Shown here piece by piece: positions 986-29,509 of a DNA stretch of 64,000 bases. Position 1 is the first letter of the stretch; every line of letters begins with the position of its first letter. The notes under the pieces were generated by a model. The model was given only the letters and a program-made list of their open reading frames with translations. It was not told the DNA's origin and made no database searches. Origin of the DNA: Sphingobacteriaceae bacterium (lineage in GTDB: Bacteria; Bacteroidota; Bacteroidia; B-17B0; Aurantibacillaceae); assembly GCA_947480015.1 (NCBI GenBank), contig CANKBS010000014.1, positions 1 through 64,000 on the forward strand, in the 5' to 3' direction. The position numbers and the translations under genes are program-made.

Positions 986-2233
986 ATGAACTTTAGCAAT
1001 TATCCATTCACAGTTAGCGAACGTTTTATCCGTTACGTACAAATAGACACACAATCGGATGTAAACTCTGCCACTTGCCCGAGTACCGAAAAACAAAAAA
1101 ATCTTTCTCTGTTATTAGTAGAGGAATTAAAACAAATGGGCATTAAAGATGCCGAAATGGATGCCAATGGTTACGTGTATGCCACTATCGAAAGTAATTC
1201 AACTAAAAACGTGCCGGTATTATGTTTTTGCTCACATGTGGACACAGCGCCTGATTGCAGTGGTACTCATGTGAAACCTACACTTCATAAAAATTATCAG
1301 GGACAGGATCTTGTTTTACCTGGAGACAGATCGCAGGTGATTAAAGTTTCGGAGCATCCGGAGCTGACAAAAAAAATTGGTAACGATATTATTACAACGG
1401 ATGGTACAACTTTATTAGGAGCCGATGATAAAGCAGGAGTAGCTGAGATTATGGACGCAGCTCAATTCCTAATGAATCACCCTGAAATAAAACATGGTAA
1501 GATCCGGATTTTGTTTACACCGGATGAAGAAATCGGAAGAGGTGCCGATAAGGCCGATATGAAAAAATTAGGTGCCCACTTTGGCTATACCTTGGATGGG
1601 GGTCCGCTTGGAACCCTCGAAAACGAGACCTTTAGCGCTGATGGTGTACATCTAAAAATAAAAGGTTTCTCTACTCATCCGGGTTATGCCAAAAATAAAA
1701 TGCAGCATGCCATGAAAATTGCCGCTCAGATAATCAATAAAATTCCGGTAGACAAAACTCCCGAAACCACTGAAAAGAAACAACCTTTTATTCATCCCAA
1801 TAGTATCAGCGGGGGCTTGGAAGAAGTTGAAATTAAATTTTTGATCCGTGCCTTTGATACACCAACGCTTTTAGCACTTGAAGAAGAATTGAGAATGATT
1901 GTAGTAGAGGTATTGAGTGCCTACGATAAATCGTCTTATGAGTTTATGGTCATCGAACAATACCGCAACATGCGTGAAATGCTTGACAAAGAACCACGCA
2001 TTATAAATAACGCGTTAGAAGCCATTAAACGAGCTGGCATGAAACCGATATTAGACAGTATTCGCGGTGGAACAGATGGCTCACGTTTTTCATTTATGGG
2101 CATGCCTACTGCCAATATCTTTGCCGGTGAACATGGTATACATAGCAAACAAGAATGGGTGAGTATTCAAGATATGCAAAAAGCAGTGGAAACCATTGTG
2201 CATATTTGTAATATCTGGGAAGAGACGGCTTAA
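986..2233 (+). CDS. pepT: Peptidase T (tripeptide aminopeptidase)
   Basis: Cytoplasmic M20-family zinc metallopeptidase that removes the N-terminal residue of tripeptides. At 415 residues it has the normal family length. Metal ligands are visible: SHVDTAPDCSG (His84, Asp86), the bridging aspartate in LLGADDKAG (Asp147), the catalytic glutamate region TPDEEIGRGAD (Glu181/Glu182), and the terminal histidine in GEHGIHSKQEW. The dimerisation domain lies between, around residues 205-320. It stands alone on the plus strand, 55 bases after the dead nuclease gene. The ATG at 986 is the natural start because family similarity begins within the first ten residues. Confidence 0.96.
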   Translation: MNFSNYPFTVSERFIRYVQIDTQSDVNSATCPSTEKQKNLSLLLVEELKQMGIKDAEMDANGYVYATIESNSTKNVPVLCFCSHVDTAPDCSGTHVKPTLHKNYQGQDLVLPGDRSQVIKVSEHPELTKKIGNDIITTDGTTLLGADDKAGVAEIMDAAQFLMNHPEIKHGKIRILFTPDEEIGRGADKADMKKLGAHFGYTLDGGPLGTLENETFSADGVHLKIKGFSTHPGYAKNKMQHAMKIAAQIINKIPVDKTPETTEKKQPFIHPNSISGGLEEVEIKFLIRAFDTPTLLALEEELRMIVVEVLSAYDKSSYEFMVIEQYRNMREMLDKEPRIINNALEAIKRAGMKPILDSIRGGTDGSRFSFMGMPTANIFAGEHGIHSKQEWVSIQDMQKAVETIVHICNIWEETA

Positions 2234-2324
2234 GAGGAATTTAACTATTAAGACTGAGCCAACTCATTTGCTTTTTTAGGAAATAATTCTACTTTAGTTG
2301 AATAAATCATAATTAAGAAAAGCT

Positions 2325-3026
2325 ATGAAAAAGTTAACACTCTTATTTCTCCTGAGCCTGGGGCTTTCGAGTTTTAAATTTCTTTCTGGTGATTGTGGAA
2401 GCCTTCTTTTTTTTAAAGAAGGAACATCTACCACTATGGCCACTTATAACGACGATGGTAAACTTACCGGCACAGTAAAAACACTTTATACAGCCGTTTC
2501 TAAAACACCATCTGGACTCAGTGTAAAAGCTCAGCAGGAAAGTTTTGATAAAAAAGGCAAGTCCGCCTACAAAGCCGATTACACGATTAGGTGCGAAAAA
2601 GGCATCCTATTATTTGATATGAAAATGATGATGCCTGATCAGCAATCGGATACTTACAAGGATTTTGAAATGACCATGGAAGGTAATGAAAAAGAAATTC
2701 CTTCCGATTTTGTGGTGGGCTCCAGTTTAAAAGACAGCAACATTAAATTTAAATTCAAGACCAAAGAAGGCATGGAAATGGCCATGATGAACATGGCCGT
2801 TAAAATAAGTAACCGTAAGGTTGCGACTAAAGAATCGGTAACAACCTCTGCGGGGACTTTCGACTGTTATAAAATAACAGAGGACATGGAAATTAAAACA
2901 CTATTTACTACAAAGATGAAAACGACCACCTGGTTTAATATGGAAGTGGGTACAGTAAAAAGTGAAACCTATAAGGATAACGGTAAATTTAAGGGCAGAA
3001 CAGAATTAACCGCAATCAATCGCTAG
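2325..3026 (+). CDS. Exported DUF3108-like protein
   Basis: 233 residues with an N-terminal signal peptide (KKLTLLFLLSLGLSSFKFLS), so it is probably periplasmic or outer-membrane associated. The body looks like the DUF3108/TapB-like beta-rich family: a block with SAGTFDCYKITEDM, followed by a W-F-N-x-E-V-G-T-V-K-S-E-T strand near the C-terminus, is typical. Members of that family have no firm function. Methionines are unusually dense around residues 100-155 (KMMMPDQ, EGMEMAMMNMAV). No lipobox is present. It is separated from pepT by 91 bases and is convergent with pabB, which ends 10 bases away. Confidence 0.7.
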   Translation: MKKLTLLFLLSLGLSSFKFLSGDCGSLLFFKEGTSTTMATYNDDGKLTGTVKTLYTAVSKTPSGLSVKAQQESFDKKGKSAYKADYTIRCEKGILLFDMKMMMPDQQSDTYKDFEMTMEGNEKEIPSDFVVGSSLKDSNIKFKFKTKEGMEMAMMNMAVKISNRKVATKESVTTSAGTFDCYKITEDMEIKTLFTTKMKTTTWFNMEVGTVKSETYKDNGKFKGRTELTAINR

Positions 3027-3036
3027 AACCTCCCAT

Positions 3037-4107
3037 TTAATCAGTAATTACCGCCTCCAGAGCGCTTAGCATGGCTTTGGCCTTAAGTAAACACTCGTCG
3101 TATTCTTTTTCAGCTTCACTTAAATACGTGATGGCACCGCCCACTGAAAGGGATAACTTCAGTTTTTTTTGATCGTAAAAAATACTGCGAATAATGACCC
3201 ATAAACTAAAGTCTCCGTTTGCATCAACCAGACCCATTGAACCGGAATAAGCCTTTCTTTCAAAATCTTCAAAGGCATCTATCAAATCCATGGCCCTTAG
3301 TTTAGGAGCACCTGTCATACTGGCCATCGGAAAGGTGGCGGTTACAATATCCTCAAAACTCAGGTTGTCCTTCAGTTCGCAAGATACCGTACTCACCATC
3401 TGATGTACAGTTTCAAAACTTTCGATGTTATAAAGTTTGTTCACCCTTACACTGCCTTTTGTTGCCAAGTGCGAAAGATCATTTCTGGCAACATCCACTG
3501 CCATCACATGTTCGGTTCTTTCCTTTATATCGTGATACAACTCATCTTTTAACGCGTCATCTTCTTCCTTGCTTAAACCTCTGCGAATGGTTCCTTTAAT
3601 TGGTTTTGTTGAAAGTTGCGACCCTGTTTTTTTTAAAAATAATTCCGGACTGGTAGAAATAATAAATTCATCACCCGATTTGAATAAGGCAGAGTAGGGC
3701 GCTTTAGCTAGAGCATGCAGTTTAAGAAATACAGCGATGGGATTGATCTTTATAGCATCAGTAAAAAACTGAATACAATAATTTATTTCATAAATATTTC
3801 CTTGTTGAATGTGTTCTTTTAATTCCTTTATTTTTTTAAGATAAAGTTCTTTGGATGTTCTGCTTCTAAACCTAATTTTATCAGCTGTTGCAAGGCCTTT
3901 TTTAAAGTCGGCAAGATCAAGCGCCTCTTTACTTTTGATTTTATAATACTTTACAAGTGTTTCTTTTTGCTGTGGATTTTGATAAGGGATTAGAACAAAA
4001 CAGTTTTGCTCATAATGGCTGATGGGTTCTAATTCAAAAGCAGTGCCTGTGGAGCCGCTGCTGCCGGTGGGTATAAAAAGAAAATGCGCAATCCGTTCAA
4101 AATCCAT
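3037..4107 (-). CDS. pabB: Aminodeoxychorismate synthase component I
   Basis: Chorismate-utilising enzyme that makes 4-amino-4-deoxychorismate for folate synthesis. The PIKGT motif (in TKPIKGTIRRGL), with the nucleophilic lysine typical of PabB, separates it from anthranilate synthase TrpE, which has PIAGT. Other family blocks are YEINYCIQF, HVMAVDVARNDL and FPMASMTGAPKLRAMDLID. I chose the ATG at 4107 (MDFERIAHFL); a longer frame exists up to 4185 but overlaps the divergent nadD start and has no family similarity. With 356 residues it is the short PabB type without a large N-terminal extension. The glutamine amidotransferase partner pabA and the lyase pabC are not in the window. Confidence 0.93.
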   Translation of the reverse strand: MDFERIAHFLFIPTGSSGSTGTAFELEPISHYEQNCFVLIPYQNPQQKETLVKYYKIKSKEALDLADFKKGLATADKIRFRSRTSKELYLKKIKELKEHIQQGNIYEINYCIQFFTDAIKINPIAVFLKLHALAKAPYSALFKSGDEFIISTSPELFLKKTGSQLSTKPIKGTIRRGLSKEEDDALKDELYHDIKERTEHVMAVDVARNDLSHLATKGSVRVNKLYNIESFETVHQMVSTVSCELKDNLSFEDIVTATFPMASMTGAPKLRAMDLIDAFEDFERKAYSGSMGLVDANGDFSLWVIIRSIFYDQKKLKLSLSVGGAITYLSEAEKEYDECLLKAKAMLSALEAVITD

Positions 4108-26859: not shown

Positions 26860-27870
26860 ATGAAACAAGCTGTTTTACTTATTAATCTCGGTACCCCCGA
26901 AGCTCCCACGCCTGCTAAGGTTGGAAAATACCTCACACAGTTTTTAAACGATAAAAGGGTTATTGATATTAATGCCATTGGCCGTTTTATGCTGGTGAAC
27001 ATGATCATTGTGCCATTCAGAAGTTTTAAATCTTCTAAATTGTATTCACACATCTGGACCAAAGAAGGCTCACCTTTAATGACCAACAGCATTTTACTGA
27101 AAGAAAAATTACAAAAAAAACTGGGTAACGATTTTGTGGTTGAATTGGCCATGCGTTATCAGCAACCCAGCATTAAAAATGTGTTGGAAAAATTACGCCA
27201 GCAACGTCCCGATAAAATTCACATCATTCCGCTTTATCCACAGTACGCCAGTTCGAGCACAGGCAGTACCATTGAAGAAGTTTTAAATCAAATTAAAGGC
27301 TGGGAAGTTATTCCGAATTTAAACATTGTGGCTAAATTTCATCAGCATCCAAAATTTATTGAAGCCTTAGTGAAGCAGGCAAAAAAATACGATATGGCCG
27401 CTTACGACCATGTTTTGTTTAGTTACCATGGTTTACCCGAGCGACAAATATTAAAAGCATCGGCTCATTACGGCGGCAACACTTGCCAGATGGGAGCCTG
27501 TTGTAATAGCTTAACTGCAAATAACCAATACTGTTACCGAGCCAATTGTTTTGAAACCACGCGCCAACTGGTAAAAGCTTTAAATCTGCCCGAAGGCAAG
27601 TACACCACAGCTTTTCAAAGCCGTCTCGATCAAAAATGGTTGCAACCCTTTAGCGATAAAGTTGTTGAAGGCTTGGGCAAAAGTGGTGCTAAAAAGGTGT
27701 TGGTATTCTCGCCGGCCTTTGTAGCTGATTGTTTGGAAACCATTTATGAAATTGGTACCGAATACGAAGAGATTTTTAAACATAATGGTGGTCATGAAAT
27801 TAAGCTGGTAGAAAGTTTAAACGCCAACGATGAATGGGTAGAGGCGCTGCAGGCCATGCTCAATAATTAA
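26860..27870 (+). CDS. hemH: Ferrochelatase
   Basis: 336-residue enzyme that inserts Fe2+ into protoporphyrin IX, the last step of heme synthesis. Starts AVLLINLGTPEAPTP, the family N-terminus. LFSYHGLPERQI carries the metal-binding histidine, and the acidic partner lies in VADCLETIYEIGTEY. Thirteen bases after lspA, so the two are probably co-transcribed. The cysteine-rich stretch NTCQMGACCNS may be a lineage feature; it is not the classical C-terminal 2Fe-2S cluster. Confidence 0.96.
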   Translation: MKQAVLLINLGTPEAPTPAKVGKYLTQFLNDKRVIDINAIGRFMLVNMIIVPFRSFKSSKLYSHIWTKEGSPLMTNSILLKEKLQKKLGNDFVVELAMRYQQPSIKNVLEKLRQQRPDKIHIIPLYPQYASSSTGSTIEEVLNQIKGWEVIPNLNIVAKFHQHPKFIEALVKQAKKYDMAAYDHVLFSYHGLPERQILKASAHYGGNTCQMGACCNSLTANNQYCYRANCFETTRQLVKALNLPEGKYTTAFQSRLDQKWLQPFSDKVVEGLGKSGAKKVLVFSPAFVADCLETIYEIGTEYEEIFKHNGGHEIKLVESLNANDEWVEALQAMLNN

Positions 27871-27888
27871 TGCAAAATCTGATTTTAT

Positions 27889-27967
27889 TTAAACCGGCCC
27901 AATGGGCTTATCATCGCTCAGGCGGGTGTCCATGGCATCACGCAGACCATTGCCTATAAACATAAAA
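27889..27967 (-). pseudogene. Detached copy of the 3' end of the ABC permease gene
   Basis: About 79 bases nearly identical to 28248-28326, the last 25 codons of the permease gene. On the minus strand it reads FMFIGNGLRDAMDTRLSDDK then PIGPV and stop, against FMLVGNGLRDAMDTHLSDDK in the real gene. Several differences are third-base synonymous and the others are conservative, as if this copy came from a diverged functional relative rather than from a recent local duplication. The similarity stops abruptly at 27967, where unrelated sequence leading to a small ORF begins. Confidence 0.85.
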
Positions 27968-28054
27968 CAAGATCGGATAATTTTCGATAATACTCAAAAA
28001 CCTCAGATAGTGGCAGAAGGCTTGGGCCAGCTTGATTTGAACATAAATAATGCT

Positions 28055-28062
28055 TATATTTG
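28055..28062 (+). promoter_or_regulatory. Possible -7 box for the small inserted ORF
   Basis: TATATTTG matches TAnnTTTG and ends 14 bases before the ATG at 28077. This spacing is like that of other genes in the window. Confidence 0.4.
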
Positions 28063-28076
28063 GTCTAAGATTTCCA

Positions 28077-28238
28077 ATGGGTAACAATCATCCATATACT
28101 GAATTACGTGATAAATTAATTGCCGGTACTAAGCTTGCATTTGAGCGACTAGTTGAAAAAGCGAAGTTGGAAGATGATTATCTTGTATTCTCTGATAACG
28201 GCAAGCCTATTAAAGTTAAGGCGAGATCACTTAAATAA
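28077..28238 (+). CDS. Small hypothetical protein (53 aa) inside an insertion
   Basis: Reads MGNNHPYTELRDKLI, then a helix AGTKLAFERLVEKAK and a short beta-like tail LVFSDNGKPIKVKARSLK. Charged, soluble, no signal peptide. The pattern (amphipathic helix followed by L-V-x-S-x-x-G-K-x-x-x-V-K-A) looks like a real small protein rather than random frame, and it resembles small accessory ORFs of Bacteroidota that I cannot name. I chose the ATG at 28077, though the frame is open from 28050. It lies between hemH and the permease operon together with a copy of the permease 3' end. Function unknown; antitoxin-like size is noted but not claimed. Confidence 0.55.
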   Translation: MGNNHPYTELRDKLIAGTKLAFERLVEKAKLEDDYLVFSDNGKPIKVKARSLK

Positions 28239-28247
28239 GTTCACAAA

Positions 28248-28326
28248 ATTTAAACCGGCCCAATGGGCTTATCATCGCTCAGGTGAGTGTCCATGGCATC
28301 ACGCAGACCGTTACCTACCAACATAA
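28248..28326 (-). repeat. Second copy of the permease-tail repeat (in the intact gene)
   Basis: Partner of 27889-27967 in direct orientation; includes the stop codon and last 25 codons of the ABC permease. The 359 bases from the start of one copy to the start of the other hold the small ORF. Confidence 0.85.
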
Positions 28327-29509
28327 ACGAAAGCACCAAGGTCATGATGGCAATGCCCGGTACAAAGGTGAGGTAAGCCTTATCCATTAAAATATAACCG
28401 CGGTGCGCATTTACCATTTCGCCCCAGGAAGGAATAGGAGGTTGAGCGCCAATGCCTAAAAAACTTAAACCCGCTTCGGTTAAAATAGCCGAGGCAAAAT
28501 TACTGGCGGCCATTACAATTACCGGTCCCATTACGTTTGGTAAAATATGATTAAAAATAATGCGACTGTTTTTAAAACCTAAAGCGCGTCCGGCTTCCAC
28601 AAATTCTTTTTCGCGGATGCTTAATACCTGTCCCCTTACAATACGGGCCACATCTACCCACATGGTTAAACCAACAGCAATAAACACCTGCATCACCCCT
28701 TTGCCCAATACCAAAGTAATGGCAATTACCAATAATAAAGTGGGAATGCTCCACACTACATTAATGAGCCAGCTGATCACAGTATCGGTTCTACCTCTGA
28801 AATAGCCGGCCAGAGAGCCAAGCAGAATGCCAATAAAAATGGAGATGATCACCGAAATTAAACCCACGGTTAAACTGATGCGGGTGCCAATTAATAAACG
28901 ACTCAAGAGATCACGTCCTAACAGATCGGTTCCCAACAAATATGAACGACTTTGAATATTATTTTCCTTAATAATTTTTTGTAAGTCGGCAATTGATTTT
29001 TTTTGAATTTGATTTTCACCTAAAACAACAAAACTTAATTCGTTTTTTAAAGAATCGTAAATCACTTTGGTTTTATTGTTGAGGGCATACACCACGTCGG
29101 CCAGATTAAAAGCGCTGGTGCTGCCCTTATTGGGTGTGTTGCCGGTATATTCTTCAACCAGAATATTAGGGCCCTTAAAAACATAATTGTAACAAGTGTA
29201 AGAGGCATTCGGATCGTTACGGCCAAAAAGCATGGTACTTAAAAAACCGTTAGACTCTTCCACTGCATTTCGTTTTACCAAAAGCATGTTAAGATGAAAG
29301 CCCGGTTCTTTGATATGGAGTTCGGGTTTTTGATCGTTGGCATAAGGTGTTTTATCGGGGGTTATGAGATAACCCAAAACAGAAATCACACAAGCCAACA
29401 GAATAAGAACCAAACCAAAGAGCGCTAATTTATTTCGCTTAAATCGTCGCCAGGTAAGCTCACTTAGAGATTCAGATTCGTAGTTTATAATTTTCTTTTT
29501 AAAAAACAC
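28250..29509 (-). CDS. ABC transporter permease, OppC/DppC type
   Basis: 419-residue inner-membrane subunit of a peptide or nickel-type ABC importer. N-terminal OppC-like segment (WRRFKRNKLALFGLVLILLA), a long periplasmic insertion of about 130 residues (about 50-185) typical of Bacteroidota, LGTDLLGRDLLSRLLIGTRI, then the permease core with the EAA loop (EAGRALGFKNSRIIFNHILP). The end ..GNGLRDAMDTHL is the standard OppC C-terminus. The binding protein, second permease and ATPases are not adjacent. Last gene of an operon after the GT2 gene (gap 3 bases). Confidence 0.94.
   Translation of the reverse strand: MFFKKKIINYESESLSELTWRRFKRNKLALFGLVLILLACVISVLGYLITPDKTPYANDQKPELHIKEPGFHLNMLLVKRNAVEESNGFLSTMLFGRNDPNASYTCYNYVFKGPNILVEEYTGNTPNKGSTSAFNLADVVYALNNKTKVIYDSLKNELSFVVLGENQIQKKSIADLQKIIKENNIQSRSYLLGTDLLGRDLLSRLLIGTRISLTVGLISVIISIFIGILLGSLAGYFRGRTDTVISWLINVVWSIPTLLLVIAITLVLGKGVMQVFIAVGLTMWVDVARIVRGQVLSIREKEFVEAGRALGFKNSRIIFNHILPNVMGPVIVMAASNFASAILTEAGLSFLGIGAQPPIPSWGEMVNAHRGYILMDKAYLTFVPGIAIMTLVLSFMLVGNGLRDAMDTHLSDDKPIGPV

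Follow-up and report, generated by a model that had tools for sequence, protein, structure and literature searches.

Probable remains of a mobile kinase-partner module at a duplicated permease 3' end in a Sphingobacteriaceae bacterium

In a 64,000-nt stretch of DNA of a Sphingobacteriaceae bacterium (hereafter called the window, which means the whole stretch that was analysed), we found a small insertion between hemH and an ABC permease gene. On balance it is best explained as the remains of a mobile module, composed of a zeta-toxin-type kinase gene and a small partner gene, that would have inserted at the hemH-permease junction with duplication of the permease 3' end, i.e. an insertion with long target duplication. 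The junction carries two copies of the permease tail, a kinase stub and an intact partner gene, there are relatives in which the insert is absent, and duplications flank related modules more often than they flank control positions. The window itself holds a worn remnant, of interest mainly for the pattern of which it is part, and the picture goes beyond the small imported gene that had been proposed in a first-pass annotation of this DNA.

The permease tail is present twice, as the first-pass annotation had noticed, and the repeat was delimited as a direct repeat of 80 nt, 74/80 identical, with 361 nt from start to start and a spacer of 281 nt between the copies (Table 1). A repeat search over the 64-kb window returned this pair as the sole direct repeat of at least 40 nt at a spacing of at most 5 kb, and genome-wide the 80-nt tail has two full-length matches and no more, next to five other matches of at most 20 nt. 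Six codons differ between the copies, three by synonymous changes and three by the replacements L>F, V>I and H>R; comparison with the relatives assigns L>F and V>I to the copy and R>H to the gene. The earlier description of these differences, as for the most part synonymous or conservative, holds approximately, though without a synonymous excess (3/6, p 0.46 compared to an assumed 40%).

Table 1 Features of the hemH-permease junction in the window, and direct repeats flanking related modules at other loci
Feature	Position in the window, or locus	Strand	Details and basis
Permease tail, extra copy	27887..27966	-	Last 26 codons including stop, plus 2 nt; repeat and codon comparison
Permease 3' end, copy belonging to the full gene	28248..28327	-	Repeat search
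ABC permease gene, complete, 419 aa	28250..29509	-	ORF; putative name, read from the sequence
hemH (ferrochelatase), left neighbour	26860..27870	+	ORF; near the permease in 18 relatives; putative name
Zeta-toxin-type kinase remnant, about the last 37 codons	27967..28084	+	tblastn against the kinase ends of L061-L063; phmmer E 1.6e-4
53-codon partner gene, antitoxin-like, ATG start	28077..28238	+	ORF and homologues; 8-nt overlap with the kinase stop
Promoter-like TATATTTG	28055..28062	+	Inside the kinase remnant; unusual there in the family
Repeat: aldehyde dehydrogenase (ALDH) end	L063		157 nt, 89%
Repeat: ETF-alpha end with stop	L127		101 nt, 85%
Repeat: carB end with terminator	L262		119 nt, 91%
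Repeat: SAHH end	L264		44 nt, 84%
Repeat with terminator	L034, L123		61 nt
Repeat: start of the next gene	L042		32 nt
Repeat with promoter-like stretch	L145		26 nt, copies identical

The 281 nt between the tail copies hold the kinase stub and the partner gene alone, and no recombinase gene. The kinase remnant abuts the extra tail copy directly and is in frame with an ORF that starts inside this copy, at position 27902, and the partner gene and the kinase gene, stop codon included, overlap by 8 nt. The 53-codon ORF that had been proposed between the tail copies was confirmed. A promoter-like box of its own had been proposed as well, and TATATTTG is indeed present 22 nt upstream of the partner ATG, but it lies within codons of the kinase remnant and is unusual for the family, in which such a box is found at most 60 nt before the partner gene in 7 of 99 modules. 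The box that is frequent in the family lies upstream of the kinase, where the bin of 551-600 nt ahead of the partner counts 50 occurrences in the same 99 modules, and the reading of a promoter belonging to the small gene was rejected.

Comparison of the partner gene of the window with that of three relatives gave a pN of 0.09-0.17 compared to a pS of 0.82-0.94, which indicates strong purifying selection on the partner gene over that history; such selection would hardly tell how long ago the loss of the kinase took place. Searches of the window's own genome revealed no second copy of the partner gene and no kinase match at E<=1e-30. The combination of a kinase stub and an intact partner, with no kinase elsewhere in the genome at this threshold, suggests that the partner persisted after the kinase was lost, as would be possible for an antitoxin, and we regard the 53-aa protein as a probable orphan antitoxin.

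The small ORF has homologues elsewhere. Within the genus, close homologues of 89, 85 and 75% identity are located at other loci (in genomes G030, G010 and G420), each behind an open zeta-type kinase frame; that of G030 lacks a usual start codon at the expected place and has a transposase-like ORF ahead of it. Since the partner lies behind a kinase in relatives and a kinase stub precedes it in the window, the small gene is to be read as half of a pair and no lone gene, and the import of a single small gene, as first proposed, is not borne out. Among 36 partner loci (L001 and L032-L066, weaker partner matches being left out), 24 have a kinase ORF beside the partner gene (phmmer E<=1e-3), a count that takes in the window stub and the fragmented kinases of L043 and L053. 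For the 12 loci without a kinase ORF, tblastn detected kinase pieces in four (L032 weakly, L038, L052 and L054) and no kinase piece in the other eight, one of which is at a contig end. In L052 and L054, a C-terminal piece of the kinase stands before an intact partner, as it does in the window. Viewed from the kinase side and among the matches listed, the partner (E<0.01) was found in 51 of 69 loci; restricted to the loci with a long match and enough downstream DNA, again among the matches listed, it was present in 46/59 and absent in 13/59.

Two intact kinases were scanned and both score above the cut-off of Pfam Zeta_toxin (PF06414), and the P-loop residues N, G, G, K, T and T are invariant across 19 aligned kinases. 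A kinase profile gave no match in the PDB at E<=1e-5, and one kinase gave none in PADLOC. The partner protein has no match in Pfam, NCBIfam, PADLOC or PHROGs and no significant PDB match by sequence or fold; its AlphaFold model comprises one helix and a hairpin, with a mean pLDDT of 87.6. We infer that the pair may consist of a toxin and its antitoxin. A kinase relative is encoded in 606 plasmid records, in 604 of these at below 60% identity. Kinase relatives are also encoded by five virus-labelled contigs (L332-L336), with the partner clear in L332 and weak in L333. At L131 and L138, short repeats with GGCTATA and its complement occur on both sides of the module and, judged by eye, resemble what we take to be attC-type sites of integrons, so that the module may in some cases be carried as an integron cassette.

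To place the window insert in context, 39 permease-bearing relatives (36 from the genus and 3 from the family) were inspected in stretches of unequal length. In 18 of these, hemH is near the permease; in the other 21, it is not in the stretch examined. In 8 of the 18, the distance between the stop codons of the two genes is -4 to +10 nt, and in the remaining 10 the genes are separated by 524 to 5473 nt of varied content, the gap in the window being 379 nt. This bears out the proposed insertion at the junction and shows that the layout is not alike in all relatives. The varied content of the gaps implies that the hemH-permease junction takes insertions: a three-gene cassette is common to five species, and other genes occupy the junction in the remaining gapped relatives. 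The cassette (G006, G012, G020, G034 and G421) encodes a 201-aa ORF, an HTH_34 regulator and a 2TM-domain protein, the families being taken from the G006 copy. In G030, the junction contains a decayed 195-nt copy of that genome's own permease tail, 90% identical, between two unrelated genes and with no kinase module. As the copies in the window and in G030 differ in extent and company, the tail duplication at this junction apparently arose twice.

The G030 copy, at the same junction and free of the module, is what would be expected of a plain local duplication, in which the permease tail was copied by an accident of replication or repair and the kinase-partner DNA came separately, before or after. 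The identity values are also in line with it: compared with the permease tails of 37 relatives (38 rows, G030 being represented twice), the window tail copy reaches at most 59/80, far from the 74/80 shared with the local gene. We nevertheless consider a plain local duplication unlikely, given that module edges and repeats coincide at several unrelated places, and do so oftener than at shifted positions (see below). The same search gave no donor for the window tail copy among the sampled relatives, and the first-pass view that the copy came from a related genome is not supported, though a close relative outside the sample may be the source; neither of the two tail copies is much nearer to the tails of the relatives than the other.

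A copied neighbour end at a module of this kind is not unique to the window. When the 600 nt left of the kinase were compared with the 600 nt right of the partner (E<=1e-5), a direct flanking repeat was found in 16 of 97 modules and an inverted one in 1 of 97, compared to 0/385 when left flanks were set against the right flanks of other loci. Shifted positions served as a control in the 49 loci with long flanks, in which 7 modules gave a match compared to 7/461 shifted positions (p 1e-4). Six of these 7 shifted-position matches fall in the repeat-rich locus L174, and when it is left out the counts become 6/48 modules and 1/449 shifted positions (p 4e-6). The other 9 of the 16 flank matches lie in 48 loci too short for this control, including L063, L034 and L042, which are among the loci where the pattern was first noticed. 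The pooled comparison gives a p of 2e-8 that is too favourable, as it mixes loci with and without the shifted-position control, and the Fisher p values treat loci as independent though they are phylogenetically related. Two places are represented twice among the 97 (L044/L252 and L056/L256), neither pair with a repeat; in one set the best 25 of 30 loci from the kinase search were flank-tested, and one of these 25, which has no partner, is outside the 97.

Three of the 16 cases (L051, L174 and L272) were excluded by hand as repeat arrays or low complexity, leaving 13 clean ones with repeats of 24 to 169 nt. In 4 of these 13 the duplicated stretch is a core-gene end, and in the other nine it contains no recognised gene tail; examples of both are given in Table 1, in which gene names and motifs at the repeat targets were read from the sequences by eye. 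The right-hand copy starts within 25 nt of the partner stop in 11 of the 13. Clean copies of more than 60 nt are 81-97% identical and none is fully identical, meaning that no fresh long event was seen. No repeat at E<=1e-5 flanks 81 of the 97 modules, so other entry routes, or the loss of one copy, must be common.

A target at which the signature recurs is carB. With the carB-tail copy of genome G135 as the query, 299 genomes of the same genus, which we take to be probably Flavobacterium, were searched; matches were obtained in 243, with two or three matches in 37, the second not always nearby. We read 38 carB loci closely (19 of 20 taken from those 37, G135 and 18 others) and found a tail copy near carB in 11 of them, namely in 9 of the 19, in G135 and, as a weak one, in G809; the other 10 of the 19 genomes with a second match have no copy near carB in the stretch examined. 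In five species (G135, G849, G870, G949 and G1005) the kinase module lies between carB and the tail copy, which is 819-826 nt from the carB stop in all of them, and these five cases may share descent. The site is empty in G836, G889 and G997, where the left neighbour gene stands directly before carB. Three carB tails with different genes between them are present in G1005 (L314), G949 (L318) and G972 (L316), as if insertions had been stacked at one gene end. The cargo is not always a kinase module: in G856 (L330) a 610-aa ATPase-like ORF, possibly a defence gene, is located between carB and a decayed tail copy (2140-3972 with carB turned to the minus strand), and in G798 there is no ORF of more than 100 aa between carB and the tail copy. 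Beside carB in G844 (L323), G956 (L325) and G830 (L322), single unrelated ORFs are flanked by identical carB-terminator repeats of 29-36 nt.

Stacking of copies at one gene, together with core-gene 3' ends as 4 of the 13 clean targets, could also result if a non-autonomous element, served by a recombinase from elsewhere, integrated site-specifically at gene 3' ends, in the way of prophages that replace a gene end. This we regard as improbable, because the repeats vary from 24 to 169 nt and no shared core or end sequence was seen when the flanks were read by eye, the targets also include terminators and gene 5' ends (L042, L145), and the window insert has no room for an integrase.

The source of the tail copies bears on another possibility, namely that homologous recombination brought in the module and a diverged tail together from another species, which extends the first-pass proposal to the whole module. 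Such an import is compatible with an insertion with target duplication, and we judge it doubtful though worth considering. Synonymous changes predominate in ALDH (L063; 11/18 changed codons before the stop, one-sided p 0.058 compared to an assumed 40%) and in ETF-alpha (8/11 changed codons, stop included, one-sided p 0.029 compared to the same assumed share). For ALDH, the ending usual in the genus is retained in the distal copy, which also shows decay, and it is the gene that ends atypically; this looks like an exchange of the gene end with displacement of the former one. Judged by bit scores, 4 of the 13 clear carB copies match the tail of another species better than their own (G798, G856 and both of G972, one of the latter by 5 bits only), or 5/14 if the weak copy of G809 is included. 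Against such an import, for the other 9 of these 13 clear carB copies the highest score is that with the carB of the same genome, the ETF-alpha copy has replacements at sites that are conserved in relatives and that look like decay, and the window itself offers neither a synonymous excess nor, in the sampled relatives, a donor species. The evidence on the source of the tail copies is thus mixed, and we claim no donor.

For the preferred insertion with long target duplication, we propose that a two-gene module, with a zeta-toxin-type kinase followed by a partner of about 53 aa, would have entered the hemH-permease junction, with a second copy of the permease 3' end remaining beyond the module. 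About 150 codons from the start of the kinase would have disappeared, either during entry or afterwards, with the partner staying intact. On entry, the conserved gene end would pair by homology (one-sided homology) and the other end would be joined non-homologously at a point slightly upstream in the resident gene, by which the gene end becomes duplicated; the locus would then comprise the cargo, a newly acquired gene end and the former one, displaced, with no recombinase of the module's own being used. Entry by one-sided homology without an own recombinase is the likeliest route and, taken by itself, a tentative proposal that we expect to be wrong rather than right; insertion with target duplication is the firmer part. 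As similar insertions accompany part of the related modules in other bacteria of the same large group, this may be among the ways by which small selfish pairs of genes are disseminated when they encode no integration enzyme. More speculatively, Bacteroidota might build islands in general without integrases: small selfish modules, above all the kinase-partner pair, would anchor on conserved core-gene ends, leave the displaced end as a scar and be able to stack, and an orphan partner with a kinase stub would be a long-lived residue that protects against the next copy.

Several known systems resemble parts of this picture. In the prophage-type replacement of a gene 3' end, as for e14 and icd, the element lies at a gene end and this end is present twice; the window differs in that the insert has no integrase and is smaller than 1 kb, and no fixed core site was seen. 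The zeta toxin/PezT family (PF06414) shares with the intact modules a zeta-type P-loop kinase as the upstream gene and the organisation in two overlapping genes; different here are a partner of about 53 aa that lies downstream and has no match in the four family collections searched, and a kinase reduced to a stub in the window. A limited search of the literature returned no report of such duplications in Bacteroidota or of the partner protein. The partner is without a family name and its putative neutralising role is directly testable, and the repeated and stacked occurrence of the signature at carB offers many natural events to compare.

In type VI clusters of Vibrio cholerae, orphan immunity genes are kept after the effector has been displaced, together with the displaced 3' end, and homology-facilitated illegitimate recombination has been proposed for these orphan genes and displaced effector ends (PMC5361080). 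Both systems show a displaced gene end and a retained gene of putative immunity type, and our case differs in having no secretion system or effector context. Closest is the insertion with long target duplication described for restriction-modification genes of Helicobacter pylori (Nobusato et al. 2000, as recounted in PMC1643837 and PMC3031569). The two have in common a gene pair of selfish type between long target repeats of variable length and the existence of insert-free relatives; here, in contrast, the cargo is a kinase-partner module (at carB other genes too), the phylum is another one, some of the targets are core-gene 3' ends and the long copies are diverged. What was known for restriction-modification genes from closely related genomes is herewith extended to a toxin-antitoxin-like module in another large bacterial group, with which the signature is associated in a controlled comparison.
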